Shown here: positions 296 through 13,901 of the stretch, piece after piece
Numbering within the stretch: the first letter of the stretch is position 1
How the letters are laid out: each line of letters starts with the position of its first letter
Origin: Muribaculaceae bacterium
GTDB lineage: Bacteria > Bacteroidota > Bacteroidia > Bacteroidales > Muribaculaceae
DNA length: 50,652 nucleotides
Direction of reading: 5' to 3'
NCBI GenBank assembly: GCA_017557425.1
Contig: JAFYYU010000014.1
Span: forward strand, 1 to 50,652
Program-made: the position numbers and the translations under genes
The notes under the pieces: generated by a model
Databases searched by the model: none
Told to the model about the DNA's origin: nothing
The model's input: only the letters and a program-made list of their open reading frames with translations

Positions 296-829
296 CTAAA
301 TACATGCTTGGAACGCACCGAGGCCGATGCTCGTGACCGAGTTGGGGATGGTGACGCTTGTCAGACCGATGCAATCCTGGAATGCCCTGCCGCCAATGGA
401 AGTGACCGAGTTGCCGATAGTGAGGCTGGTCAAACTCTGACATCTATAGAACGCATAGCCGCTGATGGAAGCGACGGAGTTGGGGATGGTCACGCTGGTC
501 AGACCGCTGCAATCATAGAACGCATAGTTGCCGATAGACGTGACGGAGTTGGGGATGGTCACGCTCGTCAGACCAGTGCAGCCATAGAACGCAGAGTTGC
601 CGATGGACGTGACAGAGTAAGTCGTTCCATTGTATGATACGACAGATGGAATGGTCACATCTCCGGTGTACCTATCGCTGTATTGCCAATTGTACGTTCC
701 TTTGTAAGTGACAGTAGCATCGGTGCCATTGATGTTGTAGTAGATGCCATCCACTACGAAATCGTGGGCGGTGGCGGTGGCTGGCAACAGGAGCGCCAGC
801 AAGAGAGATAGTTTGATAAGGTGTTTCAT
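296..829 (-). CDS. BspA-like leucine-rich-repeat protein, truncated
   Basis: A short exported protein of about 177 residues. The start chosen is the ATG at 829, because it begins a clear signal peptide ([21 protein letters not shown]) and lies downstream of a good promoter. After a beta-rich segment of about 55 residues come four and a half BspA-type repeats of about 23 residues ([21 protein letters not shown] pattern). BspA repeats form surface-exposed solenoids used in binding and adhesion in Bacteroidetes. The last repeat stops abruptly at AFQACI, and the DNA after the stop bears no repeat similarity. There is no C-terminal cap or sorting domain. It is probably a remnant of a longer gene, or an allele shortened by recombination between the near-identical repeats. 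Confidence 0.75.
320..640 (-). repeat. ~69-bp tandem repeats encoding LRR units
   Basis: Near-identical units of about 69 bases (23 codons) encode the BspA repeats. The phrase encoding [14 protein letters not shown] recurs almost unchanged at DNA level, which makes the array prone to slippage and recombination. Confidence 0.7.
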
Positions 830-880
830 TGTCCGGTTTATTGTTATTTGGTTTTTATTTATTCCTATCATTTCTGGGTG

Positions 881-911
881 CAAATTTATGGATATTTCCG
901 CAAAAATCAAA
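881..911 (-). promoter_or_regulatory. Bacteroidetes-type promoter of the BspA-like gene
   Basis: On the minus strand a TTTG (911-908) is followed after 19 bases by TAAATTTG (888-881). This matches the Bacteroidetes sigma-ABfr consensus TTTG / TAnnTTTG exactly. Transcription would begin near 875, giving a leader of roughly 45 bases before the ATG at 829. Confidence 0.7.
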
Positions 912-3429: not shown

Positions 3430-5262
3430 TTATAATTGCTGCTGTATGCGCCAGATGGTTCCCTCGATGAGGGAGCAATAGACGTCGCCGCGCTCATCGA
3501 CTTCAAAGCCGTTGACCTCGCTGGAGCCCATGCTATAGGTGAATACCAATTCATGGGTTGTGGCATTGACCACCGCCAGCATGCCGCGGCGTGAACCGCA
3601 ATAGATGTAGCCGTCATGCTCCAGCACGATACAGGGCGCATGCTCATAGCCAAACCCCAAATCGACTTTCCAGAGCATCTCATAATTGTCGCCCGTGCTC
3701 ATGGCCACGAGTTCGCCGTCCATCGTCTTGGCATAGGCCACCGAGCCGTCAGCGCTACGCCCGAGGCTCTCGCGCACCTTGTTTTCGTTCTTCTCGCGCC
3801 ATAGCTGAGTTCCGCTCTTGCGGTCAATCGCCGTTGTTACGCGGTCGGGAGCGACGACAAGCACATGGTCGCTGGTCACGACGGGCACCACATTTCCAGG
3901 GCTGTAAAGATTGACGTTCCTGCCATTGTTCCATTGCCACTGCAAGGCACCCGTGCGGCAGTTAAGCGAGCGCAAATAGGTGTCCCACGCGCCGAAGATG
4001 ACGTCACCGCCACCTACCACAGGAGCCGCTTGACAGTAATTGTTGATGCTGTCATAATGCCATAACAGGCGGTGACGCTTCACATCCCAAGCCTGGAAAG
4101 TCTTATAGCCGCCTTGATAAAGGATACCATCCCTCACAACGCCGTCGGCAACGTAGGGGCCGTTCGCCTCATACTGCCACTTTGCCTTGCCCGACTTCTT
4201 ATCGAGCCACACGAGGCGCTTGTCGCTCGTGGGCAAAACGACGTACTTGTCACCCACAGCAGGGCGCGAGAAGAGCATGGCATCGGTCTTGAATTGCCAT
4301 CGCAGCGCTCCCGTCTTCTTGTCCACTGCCTTGCAATAGCCCAGCGAGTTGCCAAAGTACAGGTTCTTGCTGTCCACACCCACACGGGTAAAGATTGAAG
4401 CATTGTCGGCGACAATGCGCTTGACATCAAATCCTGCGGGGACTGAATTGTGCAGCTGGGGCTGTGCAGCCGTATAATAGTCCAGATTGATGCGGTAGGA
4501 GAACATCACCACGGGCTCATTGCCGATCACCTTGTTGTACACGTATATCCACTGCCGGTCAAGGTCGATGGTCATCAACGTGTAACCATAGTTGTCACCG
4601 CCCATATCGAGGGCGCGTACCATCACACCGTTGATGCCGTCGGTCTCATAAAGCCGCCAGGTGTGGTAGTGGCCGCACTGATGGGTAACGACGGGATACT
4701 TCTTGAGGATATCCACATAGGCGCGGTAATTGTCAAGGTCGTCAAGAATGGGATAGTGGTTGACACTCAACACACGCATCCCGGGCTTTACCATGACATT
4801 CAGAGTGCTGTCGAGCCACAGGAGGTCTTCCTGCTTGATGTGGCCGTCGCCCATCTTCATGAACGGGCCGCAGTTCATTCCCACGACCACCAGGTTGCCA
4901 ATGGTGAAAACAAAGCGGTCGCTCCCCCACAAGTCGTTAAAGGTCTTGCAAGCGCTCTGGCTCCAGTTGTTCTCGTGGTTACCCGGAATGATATAAAACG
5001 GATGCCTGATGCCGTCGAGAATACCCTTGATGTTGCGCAACTGCTCGTCACTGCCCTCGTTGGTGAGGTCGCCAGTCAACATGACTGCATCAACATCAGT
5101 AGCATTGATTTCAGCAACCGCTTCACGCAGCTTGCCCTCGTTGGCATTGCCTGGCGTGACATGCACATCGCTCAGGATGGCCAACTTGACCACCCCACCC
5201 TGCGCTGCCAGCGATAACGCTACTGCAGCGATAAAAAACGCCAATCGTTTGAACATATACAC
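3430..5262 (-). CDS. exported calcineurin-like phosphoesterase fused to PQQ-type propeller
   Basis: A 610-residue protein with an N-terminal signal peptide (alternative start at Met3). Residues ~26-235 form a binuclear metallophosphoesterase: SDVHVT (Asp32, His34), GDLTNE (Asp65), GNHEN (Asn95, His96), NHYP and GHYH motifs are all present. Residues ~290-610 hold repeated blades such as TGALRWQF, SGKAKWQYE and TGALQWQWN, typical of a PQQ-like beta-propeller. It likely acts in the periplasm, hydrolysing a phosphoester while the propeller binds a partner or ligand. It is the last gene of the TIR/caspase/RyR operon, only seven bases after the RyR gene, so it is probably part of that system. The substrate cannot be told from sequence. 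Confidence 0.85.
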   Translation of the reverse strand: MYMFKRLAFFIAAVALSLAAQGGVVKLAILSDVHVTPGNANEGKLREAVAEINATDVDAVMLTGDLTNEGSDEQLRNIKGILDGIRHPFYIIPGNHENNWSQSACKTFNDLWGSDRFVFTIGNLVVVGMNCGPFMKMGDGHIKQEDLLWLDSTLNVMVKPGMRVLSVNHYPILDDLDNYRAYVDILKKYPVVTHQCGHYHTWRLYETDGINGVMVRALDMGGDNYGYTLMTIDLDRQWIYVYNKVIGNEPVVMFSYRINLDYYTAAQPQLHNSVPAGFDVKRIVADNASIFTRVGVDSKNLYFGNSLGYCKAVDKKTGALRWQFKTDAMLFSRPAVGDKYVVLPTSDKRLVWLDKKSGKAKWQYEANGPYVADGVVRDGILYQGGYKTFQAWDVKRHRLLWHYDSINNYCQAAPVVGGGDVIFGAWDTYLRSLNCRTGALQWQWNNGRNVNLYSPGNVVPVVTSDHVLVVAPDRVTTAIDRKSGTQLWREKNENKVRESLGRSADGSVAYAKTMDGELVAMSTGDNYEMLWKVDLGFGYEHAPCIVLEHDGYIYCGSRRGMLAVVNATTHELVFTYSMGSSEVNGFEVDERGDVYCSLIEGTIWRIQQQL

Positions 5263-5269
5263 TTGACTG

Positions 5270-5566
5270 TTATTTTGAAATGTTAAACCCTAGTTTCATA
5301 ATCAGCTTGAGGGTGCCCACCGCTGTGTCACGGTCATACTGCTTTTCTTCCTCAGGCAATTCCTCATAAGGAACCAGGCTGGGATGAGTCTTGAACTCAT
5401 CACTGCGCACAGGTCCCCAAGTCCACCCCTGGGCAATACGCGAACTTGCCCACACTTCATGTACATTGCGGGCCAGCTGTTCCACCAGGTGCTCAAGCTC
5501 TTCCGGCAGGCAGATATCACTGGTATCAGCCGGTTGTGGGAAATATTCTTCGCTCTTTTGCTTCAT
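5270..5566 (-). CDS. stand-alone RyR-domain protein
   Basis: A 98-residue cytoplasmic protein that is almost entirely one RyR domain (the repeat named after ryanodine receptors). Seen at residues ~28-92: an IHE.W-like helix (NVHEVWASSRIAQGW), then THPSLVPYEELPEEEKQYDR and TLKLIMKLGF, all strong matches to the domain. In bacteria this domain is found alone or on signalling and channel proteins, and is thought to bind a small ligand; its ligand is not established here. The gene lies eight bases after the TIR gene and seven before the phosphoesterase gene. A second, divergent RyR-like segment ends the first protein of the same operon. Confidence 0.9.
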   Translation of the reverse strand: MKQKSEEYFPQPADTSDICLPEELEHLVEQLARNVHEVWASSRIAQGWTWGPVRSDEFKTHPSLVPYEELPEEEKQYDRDTAVGTLKLIMKLGFNISK

Positions 5567-5574
5567 TTTACTGC

Positions 5575-6738
5575 TTATAATTTCTCAATCACATCACTCT
5601 CGCCACAGGGCATCGTAATCATGTCGTTGTAAAGCCGGAACGGCGCTTTTACCTGATAGGTCTTGCGCTGCTGCTCCAGGGGAACAAACATGCTGACCTG
5701 GCCATCCCCGTCGGTCGTTACCGTCTGCCCTGCGATTTCAAGTTTTACACCACCGATGAATGTCTCGGTCTCGGGATTCCACAAGCCAAACTTCACTTTT
5801 CCAAAAACGTCAGGGTCACGACGAATGTCTAATGTCACATCACGATCAAGCGTGATCATCGTGTCCATATCAACGAAATCACGGCAAGCAAAGGTCATTT
5901 TCACCTGTTTACCCAGATAGCGGTGGGGAACGTTCGTCAAAACACCGCTATTGTCAATCGCCGCGATGGTGTCACTCTTGGACTCGTTGTCAAGCGTTAA
6001 CGTGACGACGGCATCCTTCATGGGAGGCAGCTGGTCGTTGTGAACCGATGTCTCGCTGAGATGCACCGTCGCGTCAAACGGTTGATTGGCGGCCCAAACG
6101 GCCCATAGAGCGGCCAGTACAGCCACAATGCCGAGGAACCACGCAATGGCGCGATTGATGAGGATGCGTTTGTGACGCTGCCAAATGGCGTCAAACTCCA
6201 CGCCCAGCAACTTAGACACCAGCTGGACATAAGCACGCTCCTTGTTCAGCAACGGCAAGCGATAATTCTGCTCGTGGATGTTGGCGCCCAATATCTCGGG
6301 CAAACCCAGTTTGTCGATGACAGGGTTGAAGCACTCTGTCTCGGGATCACCGCTATGCGGCTTGCCGTCAACGATAAAGAAATGGATATTCTCGGTGCGT
6401 CCCAGACTATGGAAGAACTCAATCTCCTTACCCACCCAGTCAGATTGCGCCGAGTTAGGAGAACAGATGACAATCAGATTCCTCGAAGCCTTTAGCCGTT
6501 CCTGCAATTCATCGGTCAAGCCGCCTGGCTGGATATCGGTGGGTGCAAAGAAGACGGGCCTGATAGGCGTGCGTTTCCATCCTCGCTCGCTGCACAGCGT
6601 CGCCGGCATGCGGTAATGCTCAAGCTTGCGCTGCACGCGCTTGCCCCATTTAGTGTCCTTGCTGTTATAACTGATAAAGGCATAGTATTTAAACTCCTGC
6701 TCTTTAATCATCTCTTGTTCTTGTTCTGAAATATCCAT
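5575..6738 (-). CDS. TIR-domain membrane protein with periplasmic beta region
   Basis: A 387-residue protein. Residues ~16-125 are a TIR domain: YYAFISYNSKD, then PGGLTDELQERLKAS, LIVICSPNSAQSDWVGKE and FFIVDG. Glu105 in the SDWVGKEIEFF segment sits where TIR NADases carry their catalytic glutamate. A conserved helical stretch follows (~140-190), then one transmembrane helix (~193-216, WFLGIVAVLAALWAVW). Residues ~217-387 are beta-rich and resemble transthyretin or carboxypeptidase-regulatory folds. Expected topology is TIR in the cytoplasm and beta domains in the periplasm, so the protein could pass an envelope signal inward or anchor partners outside. NADase activity is plausible but inferred only from the motif. 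It follows the caspase gene after 53 bases. Confidence 0.9.
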   Translation of the reverse strand: MDISEQEQEMIKEQEFKYYAFISYNSKDTKWGKRVQRKLEHYRMPATLCSERGWKRTPIRPVFFAPTDIQPGGLTDELQERLKASRNLIVICSPNSAQSDWVGKEIEFFHSLGRTENIHFFIVDGKPHSGDPETECFNPVIDKLGLPEILGANIHEQNYRLPLLNKERAYVQLVSKLLGVEFDAIWQRHKRILINRAIAWFLGIVAVLAALWAVWAANQPFDATVHLSETSVHNDQLPPMKDAVVTLTLDNESKSDTIAAIDNSGVLTNVPHRYLGKQVKMTFACRDFVDMDTMITLDRDVTLDIRRDPDVFGKVKFGLWNPETETFIGGVKLEIAGQTVTTDGDGQVSMFVPLEQQRKTYQVKAPFRLYNDMITMPCGESDVIEKL

Positions 6739-6791
6739 TTTCTTGATAGTTTATTCTCAATCGTTTTCTAACAATGCGTTGAAACAGAGCA

Positions 6792-8300
6792 TCAGAATGT
6801 CATTTTCCTCCATCTGTCGCTCTGATAAGAGGTAAAGGCCCTCGGTGTCTGCCGTTTGCGCAAGTCGAGCGTGGGTGCCACATTGCTCACGTTTTTCTCG
6901 ATATCGTCGGCCAGTTTGCCATAGGAGACCATACCTTGGGTATCCTGCAACTCCTTCAACAGATAGTAAGTGAACAAGCCATGCCCCTCCTCCTGGAAAC
7001 TCTGAGCCGTCTCGTTGCCGTGGGTAGCCGCCAGCACAACCAGATTTCCCGTCAATGGCTGTGTATCCTGAGCCTCGACCTCCACAGCGCGTTCCACACT
7101 CAGGCCCTCGTTGTCACGGTTCACGCCGCTGAAACAGGCATCAAGGAACACCGTCACACGATCAAATCCCAATCCACCCAGTGTGGCATAGAACTCCTCC
7201 AGAGAGATTCCCTGTTGAGGCCTGGTTCCGTACACATCGGTCGGCAGCAGGTAAGCCTTATTGTTGTCCTTGATGTCAGGGACGCCGTGACCAGCATAAT
7301 AGACAATCAATTTCTTATACTGGCGATCAGTAATCTCATGGCCCAACCAGTCGGTCATTTCCTGCTCAAGAATCATGTGCTTGGTGGCATCTTCACACAG
7401 GTGAACATTTTCGGCCGGGATACCCAGGGTTTTCTTGCAATACTCGGCAAAGATTGTCGCATCGTTCTTTGCAAATGGCACATCAGCGACAAAACGGTAA
7501 TGCTCGTTACCAAAGATGAGCGCATAGGTGTCGTTGCGCACAATCAAGGCCTCGGGGATATTGGCATCAACAACCGACACGCGCGTGTCGGTCTGGTAAG
7601 ACTGATACATTTTCAGGCAGATGGCGACTGCTTCGCGGTCCAGCCCGTACTCGGTGCAGTTATCTGTATTGATATTCTTGGGCAATCCTCTAATCTCACC
7701 CTTGTAATAGGTGTGATAAGTCTTGCCTCCCTCAGAAACTTCGGTGGCGAAAACGGCCTTGCCTAACAACGCGTTGTCACCAATCTCGACCAGGTTCAGG
7801 TTAGTGCACGACAGGAACGCCTGATCCTCGACACGCGCCAGATTGGGGATGCTCACCGAACGGAGCGACGAGCAGTTGGCAAACGCGACAGTGCCGATGC
7901 GCTTGACATTGACCGGTATAGAGATATTGAACAAATTGTTGCAGTTCAGAAAAGCTCCCCACCCGATTTCATACAGGAACGTGTGCTGGAACTCAACGGT
8001 CGTCAAGTCCTTGCAATTGGCGAACGCACAGGAACCGATACGACTCACACCAGGCCCAATCACCACCTTGCGCACCGACAACTTCTGTTTTACCCATGGC
8101 GCAATGTTCTTGTTCAGGTCATAATCGGGCATCTCGACCACGTTCTTGCGTGGAGTCATGTTGTTGATGTACAACGTGCGCCCGTCAAAGTTCCACTCAA
8201 CGTCACTGCCACACTTACCCGAGGCAGTATTCGTGTTTTGGGCAACTATGGAGCATGCCCAAAACACGGATATCGCCAAGAGAAGGATTATCCTTTTCAT
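6792..8300 (-). CDS. exported caspase-like (C14) protease with LRR region
   Basis: A 502-residue protein with an N-terminal signal peptide (MKRIILLLAISVFWACSIVA). Residues ~75-175 contain BspA-like leucine-rich repeats (IGSCAFANCKDLTTVEF, IGTVAFANCSSLRSVSIP). Residues ~255-490 are a caspase/metacaspase domain with the full His-Cys pair: His338 in YYAGHG and Cys389 in DACFSG. TYALIFGNEHY begins the domain and NLVVLAATHGNETAQ follows. Most bacterial caspases act in the cytoplasm; this one appears exported, so its targets would be periplasmic or outer-membrane. The LRR part could recognise the substrate or trigger. It lies between an outer-membrane barrel-like gene and the TIR gene in the operon. 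Confidence 0.9.
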   Translation of the reverse strand: MKRIILLLAISVFWACSIVAQNTNTASGKCGSDVEWNFDGRTLYINNMTPRKNVVEMPDYDLNKNIAPWVKQKLSVRKVVIGPGVSRIGSCAFANCKDLTTVEFQHTFLYEIGWGAFLNCNNLFNISIPVNVKRIGTVAFANCSSLRSVSIPNLARVEDQAFLSCTNLNLVEIGDNALLGKAVFATEVSEGGKTYHTYYKGEIRGLPKNINTDNCTEYGLDREAVAICLKMYQSYQTDTRVSVVDANIPEALIVRNDTYALIFGNEHYRFVADVPFAKNDATIFAEYCKKTLGIPAENVHLCEDATKHMILEQEMTDWLGHEITDRQYKKLIVYYAGHGVPDIKDNNKAYLLPTDVYGTRPQQGISLEEFYATLGGLGFDRVTVFLDACFSGVNRDNEGLSVERAVEVEAQDTQPLTGNLVVLAATHGNETAQSFQEEGHGLFTYYLLKELQDTQGMVSYGKLADDIEKNVSNVAPTLDLRKRQTPRAFTSYQSDRWRKMTF

Positions 8301-8315
8301 ATAAGTTGTTGATTA

Positions 8316-9134
8316 TCAGAATCGGAATTGCACATAAAGGCGGGTGGTCTCCTCGGTCACCTTCATCGTGCCGGTGTCATAGTCCGAATCAAGCGCCTTG
8401 AACTTCATATCATCAGCCTTGCGCAGCTCAACACCAACGCCAAAGAAATCCCATGACAGATTTGCACCATACCCCATGAACAAACCGTGGCCAAAGGCAT
8501 AACCATCCTTAATCTTTGAATCCTCGGGAATTGCATCCTTGATCAGGGCACCCTCGGCGCAGTAACCAATGTGGAAATAGACTTGCAGCCTGATTTTGTT
8601 GGAACCCGACTGGTGGATGGGATTGAACGGATAGAATGTCAGTGACGGACCAATCGACATGCCATAGCTCAGGGTCATCTTCTCGTTGTGCCAGGGCAGA
8701 TTGTGCACCTCAATGCCATGAGTGAAATCAGGAATCTCTACAGCTTCAAATTTGTTGAAATTAAGGTCCATCCAGGTATAATCCAGGCCGATGAACAGAA
8801 CCGAGCCGATGGGTTTCCTGTGGAAATTGTAAGTGTGACCCCATTCCAGGCCCAAGCCCAATTTGGGCTCATATTCACGTGAGAAAACGCCAGTCGTCGA
8901 GGGGAATTCGTCGGACTTCATCTTGTGGGAAGAATTGTAAATCAGGTTCAGGTAGGTGTTCTTTCCCCAAGTGCTGTTCAGGCTCCTCGCATAGTCATTA
9001 TCATGCTTTGACTTGGACTCCTGGGCAATAATCTGTTCAAGGGTCATCACTGTAGTGTCGGCACTATTGCTCTCCATTGCATAACCTGCTAACACACAGA
9101 CAATCGTAATAACTGACAGTACAATACGTTTCAT
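8316..9134 (-). CDS. predicted outer-membrane beta-barrel protein
   Basis: A 272-residue protein with a signal peptide (MKRIVLSVITIVCVLAGYA). The rest alternates polar and aromatic/aliphatic residues in strand-length runs (TYLNLIYNSS, LGLGLEWGHTYNF, LYVQFRF) and ends in phenylalanine, as outer-membrane barrels do. There is no recognised family. Tight spacing on both sides (12 and 15 bases) makes it part of the TIR/caspase/RyR operon, where it would supply the outer-membrane component. It could equally be a barrel-like surface protein that is not itself a pore. Confidence 0.65.
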   Translation of the reverse strand: MKRIVLSVITIVCVLAGYAMESNSADTTVMTLEQIIAQESKSKHDNDYARSLNSTWGKNTYLNLIYNSSHKMKSDEFPSTTGVFSREYEPKLGLGLEWGHTYNFHRKPIGSVLFIGLDYTWMDLNFNKFEAVEIPDFTHGIEVHNLPWHNEKMTLSYGMSIGPSLTFYPFNPIHQSGSNKIRLQVYFHIGYCAEGALIKDAIPEDSKIKDGYAFGHGLFMGYGANLSWDFFGVGVELRKADDMKFKALDSDYDTGTMKVTEETTRLYVQFRF

Positions 9135-9146
9135 GTTTAAATGTTT

Positions 9147-11414
9147 TTATTGGTTAATAAATTGTTTAATGGTTTTCACTGCTGGTTGAGCCTCCTCGGG
9201 AATAATACCCAAAGCCTCGAATTGGCGGAAGTCGTCAAGGAAGGTATCTTTCAGCTCTTTCTTGTATTTCTTGTAGATGGCCATTGCCTGCTCTTGCTCA
9301 CCCTTAAACAACAGGGCTGCAGCCAGATTGGCTTGGATAAACAGCCTTGAATCATCCAGGGCAAGCCCCTTTTGGGCATATTCAATTGCCTTATCAAAAT
9401 CCCGAGTCAGAATCGCATGGTTAGACAGGTTTCCATAGCTCCGCGCCACATGTGACGTGTAGTTACTTGGCAAGCTGCCGGCCAGTGTTTGATTGATGGA
9501 TAATTCCTCCTGATACAATTTGCCGGCCTCATCCCATTGCTCCCGCTTATCACAGACGGTAGCCAGATTGCGCAGCAGTTTAGCCACCTCAGGCAAGTAT
9601 TTTTCTTTGCTCATTGAGCTCAATGTCCTGTAGGCGCCAAGCGATTCCTGGAACAATGCCTCGCTTTTCTCCATATCGTCGCCCTGATAGTATCTGATAG
9701 CCTGGTCATATAAACCCTTGGCCAGTATCGGCAGGTAAGAGCGAGGGGAATTCTTCACCATGCCACGGTAGATGTCAAGTGACTCCAAGAAGGCCTTCTC
9801 GCCCTCTTCCTTGTGATTCATCGCAAAGTCTTGCACCGACAGGTTGTTGAGCGCAACAGCGAGCAGGGGCGCATACTGTTGGGCGTCATCGGCAGCCAGG
9901 CGGCGATATATATCGAGTGCTTCGCCCAATAACTGATGGCTGTCGAAGAGGCGGTTTCCATTCTTGAAATACAGCGCCGACAGGTTGTTGAGCGTAGCGG
10001 CATAGTCCGCGTCATAGGCACTGGTGTTCTCGCCTAATTGCTGGTACATTTCCAGAGCCTTGATGTACATCTGCTCACTGTCTTCGAATCGGTCTGTCTC
10101 ATCGTAGAGCAGGGCCAGATTGTTCCAGATCGATGCCACGGCAGGCGAGTAAGCCTCGGCGTTGTCTTGCGACATGTAGATATCTATCGTCTCCTTCAGC
10201 AGCTTTTCGACACGCTTTGCGTCATGGCCGCTCCTGGAATAAAGAACAGCCATATTGTTCAGCGTCGAGGCCACATAGGGGTTATAGGTGTCAGCATCGG
10301 TGAGTGACAGGCGCTTGAACAGCGAGAGCGATTCATTGAACAACGGCTCAGCAGCGTCATCATCGGCTGTTTCAGTATAAAGTAGCGCAATATTGTTCAG
10401 TGTTTTGGCCAACAACGGTTCATAGGACTCGGGATTGTCAACAGCCATTTTTCTGGCCGCTTTCAATGCCAGATCATAGTATTGACGGGCACGTTGGGTC
10501 AAACCGCGTTTTTGCAGAAAACTACCCGCATCGGCCTGCCATTGGCAGTTAGTGGAGTCCAGTGCTGCTCGTTTCTCGATATAACACATAGCCGAGTCAG
10601 GCTCGTTGTCCAAGACAAAACGCCTGAAGAAACTGAAGCAGTCCTGAGCCAGATCATTGCGGCTGAACTGCTCGGCCTGTTCACTCTTCTCAAGCGTTTG
10701 GCGGGCCTGGACGTTTGCCTCGTGGTGCTCATTAAGTTTCTTGATACGCTCGTCGATGTCGCCCTTGCTGCGAAGCAGCGAATCGGCTTTGGCCAAATCC
10801 CCGGCAAGAATATACTCGCTCACCTGCGCATTGAATTCGTCAATCTGGTCGTAATCGATTTTGGCGTAGTATTCCGCCATCTCTCGTACCAACGTTTCGT
10901 TGCTTTCCTGCTGGTCATAGAGCTGCTGCAGGGTTTTGTTGTATTCGTCTTGGGTAATACGGTTCTGCTCCCTCAGTTTCTCGAGTTCGTCTTCGCGCTG
11001 CTGCAGACGCTTATTGAGCGTGCGGCGCAGCTGGCGCTCGGCCGCCAGTTTGTCCTCCATCAGTTTCGACTGGGTTTCCATGACCAAATACACCGGGGCA
11101 GTCGAGTAAATATAAGTTTTTGGGGCTGCATCGGCATCCACAAGCTGGTATCCGTTCTTTTTCACCGACTGGATGACAAACTGATTAGTGTTCACGGGAA
11201 ACGAGAACGAGCCGTTGTTGTTTTTCACCAGGACGGCCGCACGGCCTTTGATCTGGACAGTGGCGCCGGTCAGTCCCTGCCCGGGCACTGTTTTGCCGTT
11301 GACTATGCGTCCGCGGGTTTTGACGTAGCCCGTCTGCGTCTGGGCAATTGCTCCGCAAGCGACAGCAACCAGTAATGCCGATAAAATCAGTATCCTTTTT
11401 CTTATTTCACTCAT
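9147..11414 (-). CDS. exported TPR protein with N-terminal beta domain and coiled coil
   Basis: A 755-residue protein. Residues 1-24 are a signal peptide; a cysteine at residue 20 leaves lipoprotein processing possible. Residues ~30-112 look like a carboxypeptidase-regulatory or Ig-like beta domain (GLTGATVQIKGRAAVLVKNN). A charged coiled coil spans ~113-185. From ~250 to 740 there are many TPR units of the kinesin-light-chain type (ALNNLAVLY, TLNNIALLY and variants) with DIYRxL helices. It is probably a periplasmic scaffold for the neighbouring exported caspase, the TIR protein's outer domain and the barrel protein. Similar TPR modules often bind partner effectors in bacterial signalling and conflict systems. 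Confidence 0.8.
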   Translation of the reverse strand: MSEIRKRILILSALLVAVACGAIAQTQTGYVKTRGRIVNGKTVPGQGLTGATVQIKGRAAVLVKNNNGSFSFPVNTNQFVIQSVKKNGYQLVDADAAPKTYIYSTAPVYLVMETQSKLMEDKLAAERQLRRTLNKRLQQREDELEKLREQNRITQDEYNKTLQQLYDQQESNETLVREMAEYYAKIDYDQIDEFNAQVSEYILAGDLAKADSLLRSKGDIDERIKKLNEHHEANVQARQTLEKSEQAEQFSRNDLAQDCFSFFRRFVLDNEPDSAMCYIEKRAALDSTNCQWQADAGSFLQKRGLTQRARQYYDLALKAARKMAVDNPESYEPLLAKTLNNIALLYTETADDDAAEPLFNESLSLFKRLSLTDADTYNPYVASTLNNMAVLYSRSGHDAKRVEKLLKETIDIYMSQDNAEAYSPAVASIWNNLALLYDETDRFEDSEQMYIKALEMYQQLGENTSAYDADYAATLNNLSALYFKNGNRLFDSHQLLGEALDIYRRLAADDAQQYAPLLAVALNNLSVQDFAMNHKEEGEKAFLESLDIYRGMVKNSPRSYLPILAKGLYDQAIRYYQGDDMEKSEALFQESLGAYRTLSSMSKEKYLPEVAKLLRNLATVCDKREQWDEAGKLYQEELSINQTLAGSLPSNYTSHVARSYGNLSNHAILTRDFDKAIEYAQKGLALDDSRLFIQANLAAALLFKGEQEQAMAIYKKYKKELKDTFLDDFRQFEALGIIPEEAQPAVKTIKQFINQ

Positions 11415-11454
11415 TTTCAGTTTTTGCTAACAAAATATATGGAATTAGCTCCAA

Positions 11455-13830
11455 TCAAATGATTCCGAGAGAGACATCCACAACGTTGTAGTCATAACTC
11501 CTTACCATTTCGGTGAGTTCCTGCCAAGGCTTGAGGCAACCATGCAGCAAACGTGCCTCGTCCTTGTCGTCCTCGGCGACATCCTCGCGATATCCCAAAA
11601 TCTCGTGCGATGCCATCCAACGCAGGTGTTCAGTCTGGGCCAATACCTCAAGTACCCTTTCCACCGCGGGAACGGGAGTGTGGTTCTGCCACTGGTATTG
11701 TGTCTCGTTTTCCTGCCTGATGAGGTAATGCCCACCGATCAGCGCATAGTCTTCCTCGCTCAGTGCAGCCTTTGCCAGGGCGCGCTTGGTGAGCTGGTGG
11801 AAACAGTTCTCCATGTTCTGGCGCTGGATGCGGCGCAGTCTCATAATGCCCGAGAACGTGGGTGAGTAGCCACGGTATTCATCGGTCAGCTGCATGAGGT
11901 CACGGTGCTCGCTTTCCCACTCCAGGGGTGTCATTGCGACGGTGCCCTTTGCTCCATTCATGGCCATGATAGACTGGTCATATCTCTCTTTAAAGCGCTT
12001 GGCCTCGTTCTTGAGGCGGTCACTCACAATGTAATCCCATGTGTAAGTCGAGGACATCAAGCCGAACAGCGTGATGGGTTCGTTCACCTTGTCGCTGTTC
12101 TTCACCTCGCGCTGATGGATGTTGCGTGACGATTCATCGCTGCAAGTCTGCGCAGCCCACAGGCGGTTGTAATGCTGGGTGATTTTGAGCAGGTGCCCTC
12201 CCTTGTCGTTGCGCACACGGGCCAGGATGCGGAAGTGGTTCAAGTCTTTGCGATAACGCACCGCGAGCCTGAAGATGCGCACTGCGAGCGCCACATTCTG
12301 CTCGTCATCGTCAAGAGCAATGACTACATAGTTCAGTGTTTCAATCATGCGCTCGATGTGGTTATAGAAGTCCACGCTGTGGATGTCCAGGTCATGCAGT
12401 GTGATGGGAGTGAGATGGTCCCACTCATGTTCGTCATAAGACATCTGCCGCGAAATCGACGGGGCGTTGACGGCAAACAGACCTGCACGCTGCTTGATGT
12501 CCTTGTCAACAACGTCGCAGCGGAAACCCGAACGCTCCACCTTGCCATTGTCACTGCCAGGCTTGACAAATGCGCCAAACTCATACAGGAACCTTACCGC
12601 ATCATATCCCACTTCGCCAAAGCCCACGACAAGGGCATTGAAATCTGACGACACCGTTCCATCGGCATTGATATCCACATAACTTACCGGTTGCAGCAGC
12701 ACATCCTGCTTCAGCATCTCGACACTGATGTGCGATGAGTCCACCACCTTGACGGTGAGGCGTTCCTGAATCTGTTCGTCCTCGATGACGCGGTGCACGC
12801 TGTTGTAGCGCGCCTTGCAGTACAGGGTGGCGCTCTTGCCGTCCTCAAGCATGGCGGCGATGGTCTTGTCACGCTTCATGTTACCCACCGCCTGGATGTT
12901 ATCGTTGTCATTATCGGTGAGGAAGAAAAGGTGCACCGAGCCCGAAGTCTTGCGGCTGATGATGCGCGCCAGCAGGCCCAGGTCCAGGTGGTGACGCAAT
13001 ATGTCGGCGTATCCTGACGCATCCAGGCCATCCAACGACAGGTGGATCAAGTCGGTATAGGTGCTGGTTGTCAAGCAGTCCAGTTTCAAGAGACGCTCCA
13101 AGTCATTGTTGCGCAGAGACAGGAAGTTGAACAGGCGCTCCATGCCGTTGCGCACACTCTTGCCCTGGCCGTCGTGATTGGTGCGCACCACGATGATGCG
13201 GTAATCCTTGTTCTTAGTGCCGTAGTGCTCACGGATGCTGTCAGCCAAGAGATAAGAGGCGTCGTTCAGTCCCCAGAAAACGTAAGTCTCGCGCTTCGTT
13301 CCGGGCAGATAGGCCTCGAACAGCATCCTGAAGCCCGCCACAATGTTGTAGCCGAAGTGCTTCAGCACAAACACCAGTGTCACCACGGCCGCCAGCAGGT
13401 GAACCAGCGAGAAGGCCGCCATAAAAATCCAGTTATCGTGGAAAGGCTCGTGAATCGCTGCCACATCGCTATGGAGCAGGAACATCTCAAAGGCGTGAAT
13501 CGTCGCCATCGGCACGTTGGCCAACAGCGACCAGGGCCCATGAGAGATGTACATTCCCACGTCATACACCACGAAGCCGGCAAGCCACACCACAATAAAC
13601 GAGGTAGTCAGCCCACGCCCTGACACCGGCCAGCGACAGGCGCGGCCACGGCGGTTCATCAACAGTAACAACACGCTCACCAGCACGGCCAGCGACGCAC
13701 CCATCAGGCCGCTCCAGCGCGCCAGTGTCGACAGGTAAGGCGTCATGTCGTGCTCCAGCATTTCCACGGGCGGCAACACGCCCATCAGGCCGTTCATGGC
13801 CTCAAATACAGTGTCTGCCATCACAATCAT
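11455..13830 (-). CDS. membrane protein with tandem Rossmann/RCK-like segments and RyR-like tail
   Basis: About 791 residues from the ATG at 13830 (ATG 13821 is an alternative). The frame is open further to a TTG at 13896, but that codon lies inside the likely -7 promoter box, so I reject it. Three membrane helices lie near residues 38-60, 75-96 and 133-157. A Rossmann-type start follows at ~181 (YVFWGLNDASYL), and a second at ~399 (LVVGFGEVGYDAVRF), as in TrkA-N/RCK regulators of ion channels. The end (~723-790) aligns with the RyR domain encoded later in the operon: TEHLRW, GY, HGCLKPWQEL and YD are in the right order. It may be a ligand-gated channel or sensor of the Castor/Pollux kind. 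No K+ selectivity motif was seen, so ion transport is unproven. Confidence 0.7.
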   Translation of the reverse strand: MIVMADTVFEAMNGLMGVLPPVEMLEHDMTPYLSTLARWSGLMGASLAVLVSVLLLLMNRRGRACRWPVSGRGLTTSFIVVWLAGFVVYDVGMYISHGPWSLLANVPMATIHAFEMFLLHSDVAAIHEPFHDNWIFMAAFSLVHLLAAVVTLVFVLKHFGYNIVAGFRMLFEAYLPGTKRETYVFWGLNDASYLLADSIREHYGTKNKDYRIIVVRTNHDGQGKSVRNGMERLFNFLSLRNNDLERLLKLDCLTTSTYTDLIHLSLDGLDASGYADILRHHLDLGLLARIISRKTSGSVHLFFLTDNDNDNIQAVGNMKRDKTIAAMLEDGKSATLYCKARYNSVHRVIEDEQIQERLTVKVVDSSHISVEMLKQDVLLQPVSYVDINADGTVSSDFNALVVGFGEVGYDAVRFLYEFGAFVKPGSDNGKVERSGFRCDVVDKDIKQRAGLFAVNAPSISRQMSYDEHEWDHLTPITLHDLDIHSVDFYNHIERMIETLNYVVIALDDDEQNVALAVRIFRLAVRYRKDLNHFRILARVRNDKGGHLLKITQHYNRLWAAQTCSDESSRNIHQREVKNSDKVNEPITLFGLMSSTYTWDYIVSDRLKNEAKRFKERYDQSIMAMNGAKGTVAMTPLEWESEHRDLMQLTDEYRGYSPTFSGIMRLRRIQRQNMENCFHQLTKRALAKAALSEEDYALIGGHYLIRQENETQYQWQNHTPVPAVERVLEVLAQTEHLRWMASHEILGYREDVAEDDKDEARLLHGCLKPWQELTEMVRSYDYNVVDVSLGII

Positions 13831-13893: not shown

Positions 13894-13901
13894 CAAATAT
13901 A
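13894..13901 (-). promoter_or_regulatory. TAnnTTTG -7 element of the seven-gene operon
   Basis: The minus strand reads TATATTTG from 13901 to 13894, a perfect -7 box. Transcription would start near 13888 and give a leader of about 58 bases before ATG 13830. A TTTG -33 box is not evident, so the promoter may be weak or activator-dependent. It is divergent from the promoter at 14003-14034. Confidence 0.5.

Follow-up and report, generated by a model that had tools for sequence, protein, structure and literature searches.

A Bacteroidales operon joining TIR, RCK and RyR domains: a candidate Thoeris-like system with a RyR-bearing membrane protein

In the Thoeris systems of types I, II and IV, a TIR protein is encoded in the same operon as a SIR2, transmembrane (TM)-macro or caspase-like effector (PMC12847820 and PMC12948488). 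RyR domains meet this signalling on the phage side. In PMC13232231, the mycobacteriophage RyR-domain protein RyDEP binds and cleaves 2'/3' cyclic ADP-ribose (2'/3'cADPR) via His75, Trp78, His100 and Asp117, six of eight RyDEP homologues tested bind such signals with no cleavage by homologues, and other phage RyR proteins sequester them. Here, we describe a bacterial operon that carries both TIR and RyR domains. It lies on the minus strand of a 50,652-nucleotide stretch of a Muribaculaceae bacterium (contig JAFYYU010000014.1), which is referred to below as the window. Judged from its sequence, the operon probably encodes a TIR signalling system that resembles Thoeris and acts through a membrane effector bearing a RyR domain, and the RCK-RyR membrane protein P0007 is likely to be the output of this system.

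Seven intact open reading frames (ORFs) run from 13830 down to 3430 and are separated, in transcription order, by gaps of 40, 12, 15, 53, 8 and 7 nt, which confirms the tight same-strand arrangement (gaps of 7-53 nt) reported in an earlier note on this DNA:

11455..13830, minus strand: RCK-RyR protein (P0007), with a pore-like loop in its N-terminal membrane part, followed by tandem Rossmann/RCK-like domains and, at the C-terminus, a RyR domain
9147..11414, minus strand: exported TPR protein (Pfam TPR), with an N-terminal hydrophobic segment
8316..9134, minus strand: exported protein of 272 amino acids (aa), possibly an outer-membrane β-barrel, ending in QFRF and matching no family
6792..8300, minus strand: exported LRR-caspase (Pfam LRR_5 3.6e-22 and caspase C14 1.5e-16), with His338/Cys389 dyad motifs
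5575..6738, minus strand: TIR protein (P0003; Pfam TIR_2 4.6e-10), with Glu105, a TM helix at 197-215 and a C-terminal part predicted to be periplasmic
5270..5566, minus strand: stand-alone RyR protein (P0002; Pfam RyR PF02026 1.6e-35), with His36, Trp39, His61 and Asp78
3430..5262, minus strand: exported calcineurin-like phosphoesterase with a BamB/PQQ-type propeller (Pfam Metallophos 4.4e-13 and PQQ propeller 2.6e-26)

The RCK-RyR protein and its putative ligand-binding residues

The four residues of the stand-alone RyR protein P0002 have the spacing found in RyDEP (+3, +25 and +42). A profile-guided scan of genome contigs gave 79 loci from Bacteroidales, mostly metagenome-assembled genomes from rumen or gut with a few isolates. 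Four of these carry Clostridia titles, three of which match genomes assigned to the family of the window. Among the RyR genes of these loci, the equivalents of the RyDEP His, Trp, His and Asp are present in 48, 48, 42 and 48 of 48. Two phage records from human faeces (MT836850.1 and MT837259.1, titled 'Bacteriophage sp.' and unannotated) contain a RyR protein that is 64-66% identical to the free RyR protein of the operon over 97-100% of its length; it is possibly a phage sponge directed against the system, or host DNA within a phage record.

In P0007 itself, the matches to RyR (0.0054) and TrkA_N (0.0069) taken alone fall below the Pfam cut-offs, and the C-terminal domain is recognized at the level of the family. 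A profile comparison between the P0007 family and the RyR family gives a probability of 96.4% (E=1.4e-9), the RCK-RyR family profile matches RyR crystal structures in a PDB profile search (best 1.8e-13) and one relative (L097) narrowly passes the Pfam RyR cut-off (27.9 versus 27.4 bits). All four RyDEP residues are aligned between the RCK-RyR and RyR families by hhalign, their equivalents in P0007 being His757, Trp760, His785 and Asp802. This numbering starts from a possible upstream TTG at 13896, the ATG start of the gene being at 13830. The four residues are invariant in all 20 rows of the first RCK-RyR alignment and are all present in 21 of 21 distant RCK-RyR proteins, and the RyDEP spacing of His and Asp is kept in 9/9 distant proteins of class A. 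In two further proteins (G1095 and G1049), the second His is not found by eye at the expected place.

Simple hydropathy analysis of P0007 suggests three or four TM helices. The distant RCK-RyR forms have a 2TM-pore-RCK N-terminus with TrkA_N above the Pfam cut-off, and P0007 is placed there only through hhalign, in which the distant profile and the window-protein profile match with 99.7% probability (E=3e-26) from the membrane part through the RyR domain. When four distant RCK-RyR proteins are aligned with ordinary bacterial 2TM channels, the pore-helix region is kept and no TVGYG-type selectivity filter is present: EGDE, SGDV or GGDP takes the place of TIGFxE/TIGYGE. The RCK-RyR proteins therefore appear channel-like, without being classical K+ channels.

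Related to this family (hhalign 98.4%) is a second, RCK-RyR-like one, some members of which have membrane helices and others none. Its members are L088:5015-7174, L097:3991-6516, L211:4552-6705 and proteins of L059, L065 and L084, and in five of these loci it shares a run with the first family. A 1003-aa fusion (L309:3968-6979) joins a SLOG-like domain (weak match), a membrane part, TrkA_N and a RyR-like tail, and is adjoined by an NB-ARC-TPR gene.

Gene partners in Bacteroidales and in distant orders

Partners were counted in the 78 loci with a readable RCK-RyR gene; L086, where the RCK-RyR frame was not found, was left out. The same-strand run around RCK-RyR contains a TIR gene in 41/78 loci, a further RyR gene in 35/78 and at least one of the two in 50/78, and these counts are a minimum because the ORF picker drops genes that are overlapped by longer frames (the TIR gene of L218 was missed in this way). 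Counted per gene, TIR makes up 55/316 genes in runs and 17/780 genes elsewhere in these loci (p=6e-18, odds ratio 9.5), with 39/316 and 8/780 for RyR (p=4e-15, odds ratio 13.6), 8/316 and 5/780 for CHAT, and 5/316 and 1/780 for caspase. After grouping at 70% identity, TIR is found in 38/68 runs and RyR in 33/68.

The same association is seen between whole genomes. Among 101 genomes of the window's genus, 25 have RCK-RyR, 25 have RyR above the cut-off and 24 have a P0003-type TIR, the last tally including the partial matches in G193, G271 and G254. The overlaps are 20 genomes for RCK-RyR with RyR (p=3e-12), 20 for RCK-RyR with TIR (p=7e-13) and 19 for RyR with TIR (p=3e-11), with p-values that ignore kinship. 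Every RCK-RyR genome of the genus (25/25) has RyR or TIR, and four of the five genomes having RyR without RCK-RyR have TIR. The view that TIR and RyR/RCK belong together, already put forward from the single locus, thus gains support from both counts. In a sample of the family, a match is found in 24/198 genomes, including the window's own genome and a few partial ones (G112 and G004 being partial or weak).

All seven families occur in the same order in four of the 79 loci (L049, L050, L053 and L054), with first proteins that are 65-85% identical; this order recurs more than expected by chance, and the joint conservation across Bacteroidales on which the earlier note had staked its reading is found. 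Around it lie many variants. In L076, TPR, barrel, LRR-caspase and TIR genes precede RCK-RyR, in L214 (on a contig shared with L057) and L215 the TPR/barrel/LRR-caspase/TIR block is divergent from RCK-RyR, and in L211 a member of the second RCK-RyR-like family takes the first-gene place. Reduced forms consist of RCK-RyR/TIR/phosphoesterase (L051), RCK-RyR/RyR/phosphoesterase (L055 and L075), RCK-RyR/TPR/TIR/RyR (L052 and L058, with the phosphoesterase added in L056) or TPR/TIR/RCK-RyR (L079 and L080). Domain scans of one representative per partner cluster add TIR with FGE, SIR2, Sel1 or a weak PDZ match, as well as TPR-CHAT, trypsin, PrsW, M48 and nSTAND proteins. RCK-RyR is thus the hub of a modular family. 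A fixed seven-gene machine is rejected, as the content varies, RCK-RyR is combined with a wide range of other genes and there are versions of only two genes. The barrel and LRR-caspase form an optional addition: wherever they were met they occur together and with TPR and TIR (11/11 loci, window included; neither was searched for alone). In two loci (L212 and L213), TIR, TPR and RyR genes are present and the stretch lacks RCK-RyR; here, RyR is encoded on the strand opposite to TIR, at a distance of about 8 kb.

Two-gene versions are found in other orders of Bacteroidota. A phylum-wide profile search of 395 genomes gave a full-length match in the own genome only and short matches to the C-terminal third in 19 others; of six of these that were read, four have RCK-RyR beside TIR and two have AAA-RyR proteins without TIR in the stretch. 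The RCK-RyR proteins reached through these matches are 560-612 aa long, and both TrkA_N and RyR are above the Pfam cut-offs in the three that were scanned. Three other Bacteroidota orders (400, 114 and 164 genomes, 678 in total) contain near-full-length RCK-RyR in 19, 2 and 4 genomes, 25 in all, one of them (G1052) split over two contigs. A TIR gene adjoins RCK-RyR in 23 of these 25, being intact as far as read in 21 and an interrupted frame in two (G316 and G788). Where the RCK-RyR profile picked up an ordinary channel, TIR is found within 1.5 kb in 0/20 loci (leaving out L271, which is itself the RCK-RyR locus of G1095) and 0/24 loci, a comparison in which the windows are not fully equal because long TIR-WD40 genes beside RCK-RyR needed reading beyond 1.5 kb. 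These minimal pairs of TIR and channel-like protein look like a sensor-enzyme with its effector.

Six genomes were kept out of the 25. Three of them are weaker matches, each with a TIR gene within about 1 kb: the 887-aa RCK-RyR protein of G1095 is encoded about 1 kb from a TIR gene in divergent orientation, two large RyR-tailed proteins alternate with three TIR genes within about 17 kb in G1183 (L343), and the partial match in G1238 lies about 0.8 kb from a TIR gene. A TIR frame is near the broken RCK-RyR gene of G1012, and TIR and RyR are both absent from the stretches with the fragments in G921 and G1059.

In the TIR protein, Glu105 occupies the position that we take to be catalytic. A Glu is found there in 29/29 rows among the locus TIRs and in 30/30 rows, from 21 distinct genes, among the distant ones. 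In four relatives checked, the TM helix is preceded by four or five Lys/Arg residues within 15 positions and followed by none or one, and from this bias the TIR domain is predicted to be cytosolic and the C-terminal part to be outside. Four proteins of the operon (P0001, P0004, P0005 and P0006) have an N-terminal hydrophobic export segment by simple hydropathy; these segments are also present in most relatives, some of whose start sites were over-extended by ORF picking. The His/Cys dyad of caspase C14 is recognizable by its motifs in 6/6 rows, and 11/11 aligned rows of the 272-aa family end in QF[RW]F, the window being included in both; together with its export segment, this ending suggests that the 272-aa protein is possibly an outer-membrane β-barrel. 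The idea that immune and death-signalling domains are here spread over several layers of the envelope is borne out by the Pfam domains, export segments and TM helices. BspA-type LRR proteins are numerous (window 296-910): the caspase protein has 49 matches in its own genome including itself, nearly always through the LRR part.

The identified genes flanking the operon are housekeeping or metabolic. A homologue of the left flank is present in 54 other genomes, and of ten that were read one has the cassette beside it and nine do not (L145-L153). In these nine the position is occupied by other genes, which makes the site variable; no clean empty insertion site was found among the left-flank stretches read. 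A simple pattern scan of the coding strand detected no terminator-like site in the intergenic gaps. The Bacteroides-type promoter pattern has no match upstream of the operon and four in the window, which is not above chance.

RyR domains also occur in other settings. A 311-375-aa protein with a C-terminal RyR domain follows a 182-213-aa protein in 12/12 runs (L031:4732-6202 and 11 others; L064 is the same locus). As this partner resembles an ECF-type sigma factor, RyR domains may also control transcription; for the 186-aa partner family there is only a weak DUF1492 match and no PDB hit. In one distant genus, AAA ATPase proteins carry C-terminal RyR repeats (L225 and L236), with no TIR within the stretch read.

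A proposed signalling circuit and its alternatives

Based on what is known of these families, the TIR domains would convert NAD+ into a cyclic signal of the ADP-ribose type. This signal would bind the RyR domain of RCK-RyR and move the RCK domains, upon which the membrane pore would be opened or disrupted and growth would stop. With less support, the free RyR protein could buffer or degrade the signal and so reset the system as an off-switch, and the partners located in the periplasm and outer membrane (TPR, LRR-caspase and barrel) could respond to an attack on the envelope by acting on TIR through its periplasmic part. More tentatively, these steps may add up to a full bacterial circuit from TIR via cyclic ADP-ribose to a RyR-gated ion channel, found in two-gene minimal form across Bacteroidota and placed in Bacteroidales under an arrangement like that of Toll-like receptors. 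Here, the exported LRR-caspase, TPR scaffold and outer-membrane barrel would control the periplasmic part of the transmembrane TIR, and a proteolytic event outside the cytosol would thereby start nucleotide signalling inside and open the channel. The earlier note had RyR/RCK parts sensing a ligand or ion upstream of TIR. Its pairing of TIR with RyR/RCK stands, while the direction of flow is changed: the evidence favours TIR as the maker of the signal, RyR domains as its readers and RCK-RyR as the likely output.

Several observations weigh against the Thoeris-like interpretation. Neither TIR nor RyR is present in 28/78 RCK-RyR runs, and RCK-RyR stands alone in 10/78 loci. In the distant set, no TIR is detected by profile within the 6 kb read around G1142 or within the approximately 26 kb read around G1049, a fusion weakly matching the SLOG family that lies beside an NB-ARC-TPR gene. 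The downstream neighbour of G1142 begins, as read by eye, with DUF4062-like sequence, DUF4062 being given as a family of TIR-like NADases in PMC13174449. Ion flux is a guess, given a pore that lacks the K+ filter. In the larger RCK-RyR alignment the four residues are present in 78, 78, 75 and 78 of 78 rows, a set in which the EH..RW motif is biased because one seed pattern contained it; the 20-row and distant sets are free of this bias. Asn replaces the second His in G1230 and G1231, both outside the 21-row distant set, and conserved pocket residues cannot separate binding from hydrolysis. Finally, a defence island in the window is not supported by the flanking genes identified, and PADLOC gives only generic histidine-kinase-like and AAA ATPase matches on ten further genes of the window.

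Of the alternatives, the one that survives best, although unlikely, is that TIR is the killer. RyR and RCK would then act upstream: on sensing a host or phage metabolite (for example, altered nucleotides) or a loss of ions, they would activate a TIR that depletes NAD+. Bacterial TIRs can indeed be NAD+-depleting effectors (PMC12847820), and RCK domains of known channels respond to ions or nucleotides (PMC6957272). Against this, RyR domains with the same four residues bind TIR products (PMC13232231), the TM helix and predicted periplasmic part would suit a sensor-enzyme better than a cytosolic effector, and the minimal TIR/channel-like pairs resemble a sensor-enzyme with its effector.

It is rather improbable that the operon serves not immunity but envelope stress or ion homeostasis, with the periplasmic complex reporting wall or membrane damage to the RCK channel through a TIR-made messenger. 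The envelope-spanning composition, the export of both caspase and phosphoesterase and the housekeeping or metabolic flanks with no defence island all fit such a regulator. Its patchy presence (24/198 genomes of the family and 25/101 of the genus), the exchange of partners for TIR-SIR2, CHAT, trypsin and nSTAND proteins and the variable neighbouring site do not. Patchy presence, partner swapping and a variable site are typical of conflict systems.

Least probable is that both the free RyR protein and RCK-RyR only remove the signal, as glycosidase or sponge in the manner of RyDEP and the sequestering phage proteins (PMC13232231), the true effector then being either the exported caspase or a protein encoded elsewhere. 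A mere sponge would hardly need a membrane part and two RCK-like domains or be paired with TIR in 23/25 distant cases, and caspase occurs in only 5/78 runs and, being exported, would be separated from a cytosolic signal.

Comparison with described systems

If the Thoeris-like interpretation is correct, a class of membrane-channel effectors would be added to TIR immunity, and RyR domains would be host receptors for TIR signals and not merely phage weapons against them, which suggests a reason for the presence of RyR proteins in phages. The operon would also be a bacterial case of TIR signalling that begins outside the cytosol. Gating of a RyR-bearing channel by an ADP-ribose signal, long disputed for animal ryanodine receptors, could be tested directly on bacterial forms that are small enough for this. 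An RCK-RyR effector was not found in the literature surveyed, which does not cover a 2025 preprint on TIR systems that may describe it; among the papers listed, Thoeris and RyR appear together only in PMC13232231, on phage proteins.

The animal ryanodine receptors resemble RCK-RyR in having a RyR domain on a membrane protein and possibly a ligand of the cADPR type; the homology is limited to the RyR repeat, no other ryanodine-receptor domain being matched by Pfam in the operon proteins. RCK-gated channels of the TrkA_N and Slo type share the 2TM-pore-RCK architecture with the distant forms, while in RCK-RyR the filter is replaced and a C-terminal RyR domain is added. Caspase, TIR, FGS and trypsin effectors also feature in the NTP-dependent conflict systems (PMC7159879), which, judged by the listing of that paper, overlap in domains with the swapped partners; the term RyR is counted 0 times there. 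RyDEP belongs to the same RyR family and shares the His, Trp, His and Asp residues, whereas the genes of the operon are host genes beside TIR, one of them fused to a membrane RCK protein.

Thoeris is also among the closest parallels. There, too, a TIR enzyme and a nucleotide-binding effector share one operon, ligand binding by RyR being predicted here from the residues; type II also ends at the membrane and type IV also uses a caspase-like protease. PADLOC labels the TIR protein as ThsB-like (6.8e-8) and the caspase by a general caspase model (2.3e-12), with other matches to the operon being weak. A known ThsA effector is not found in the seven proteins, which match no PADLOC ThsA model and no Pfam SIR2, SLOG or macro domain. 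The candidate effector differs from those of Thoeris in being a RyR-bearing RCK membrane protein rather than SIR2-SLOG, TM-macro or a cytosolic caspase. The operon differs further in that its TIR protein has a TM helix and is predicted to extend into the periplasm, and in the addition of an exported LRR-caspase, a TPR protein and a barrel-like protein.

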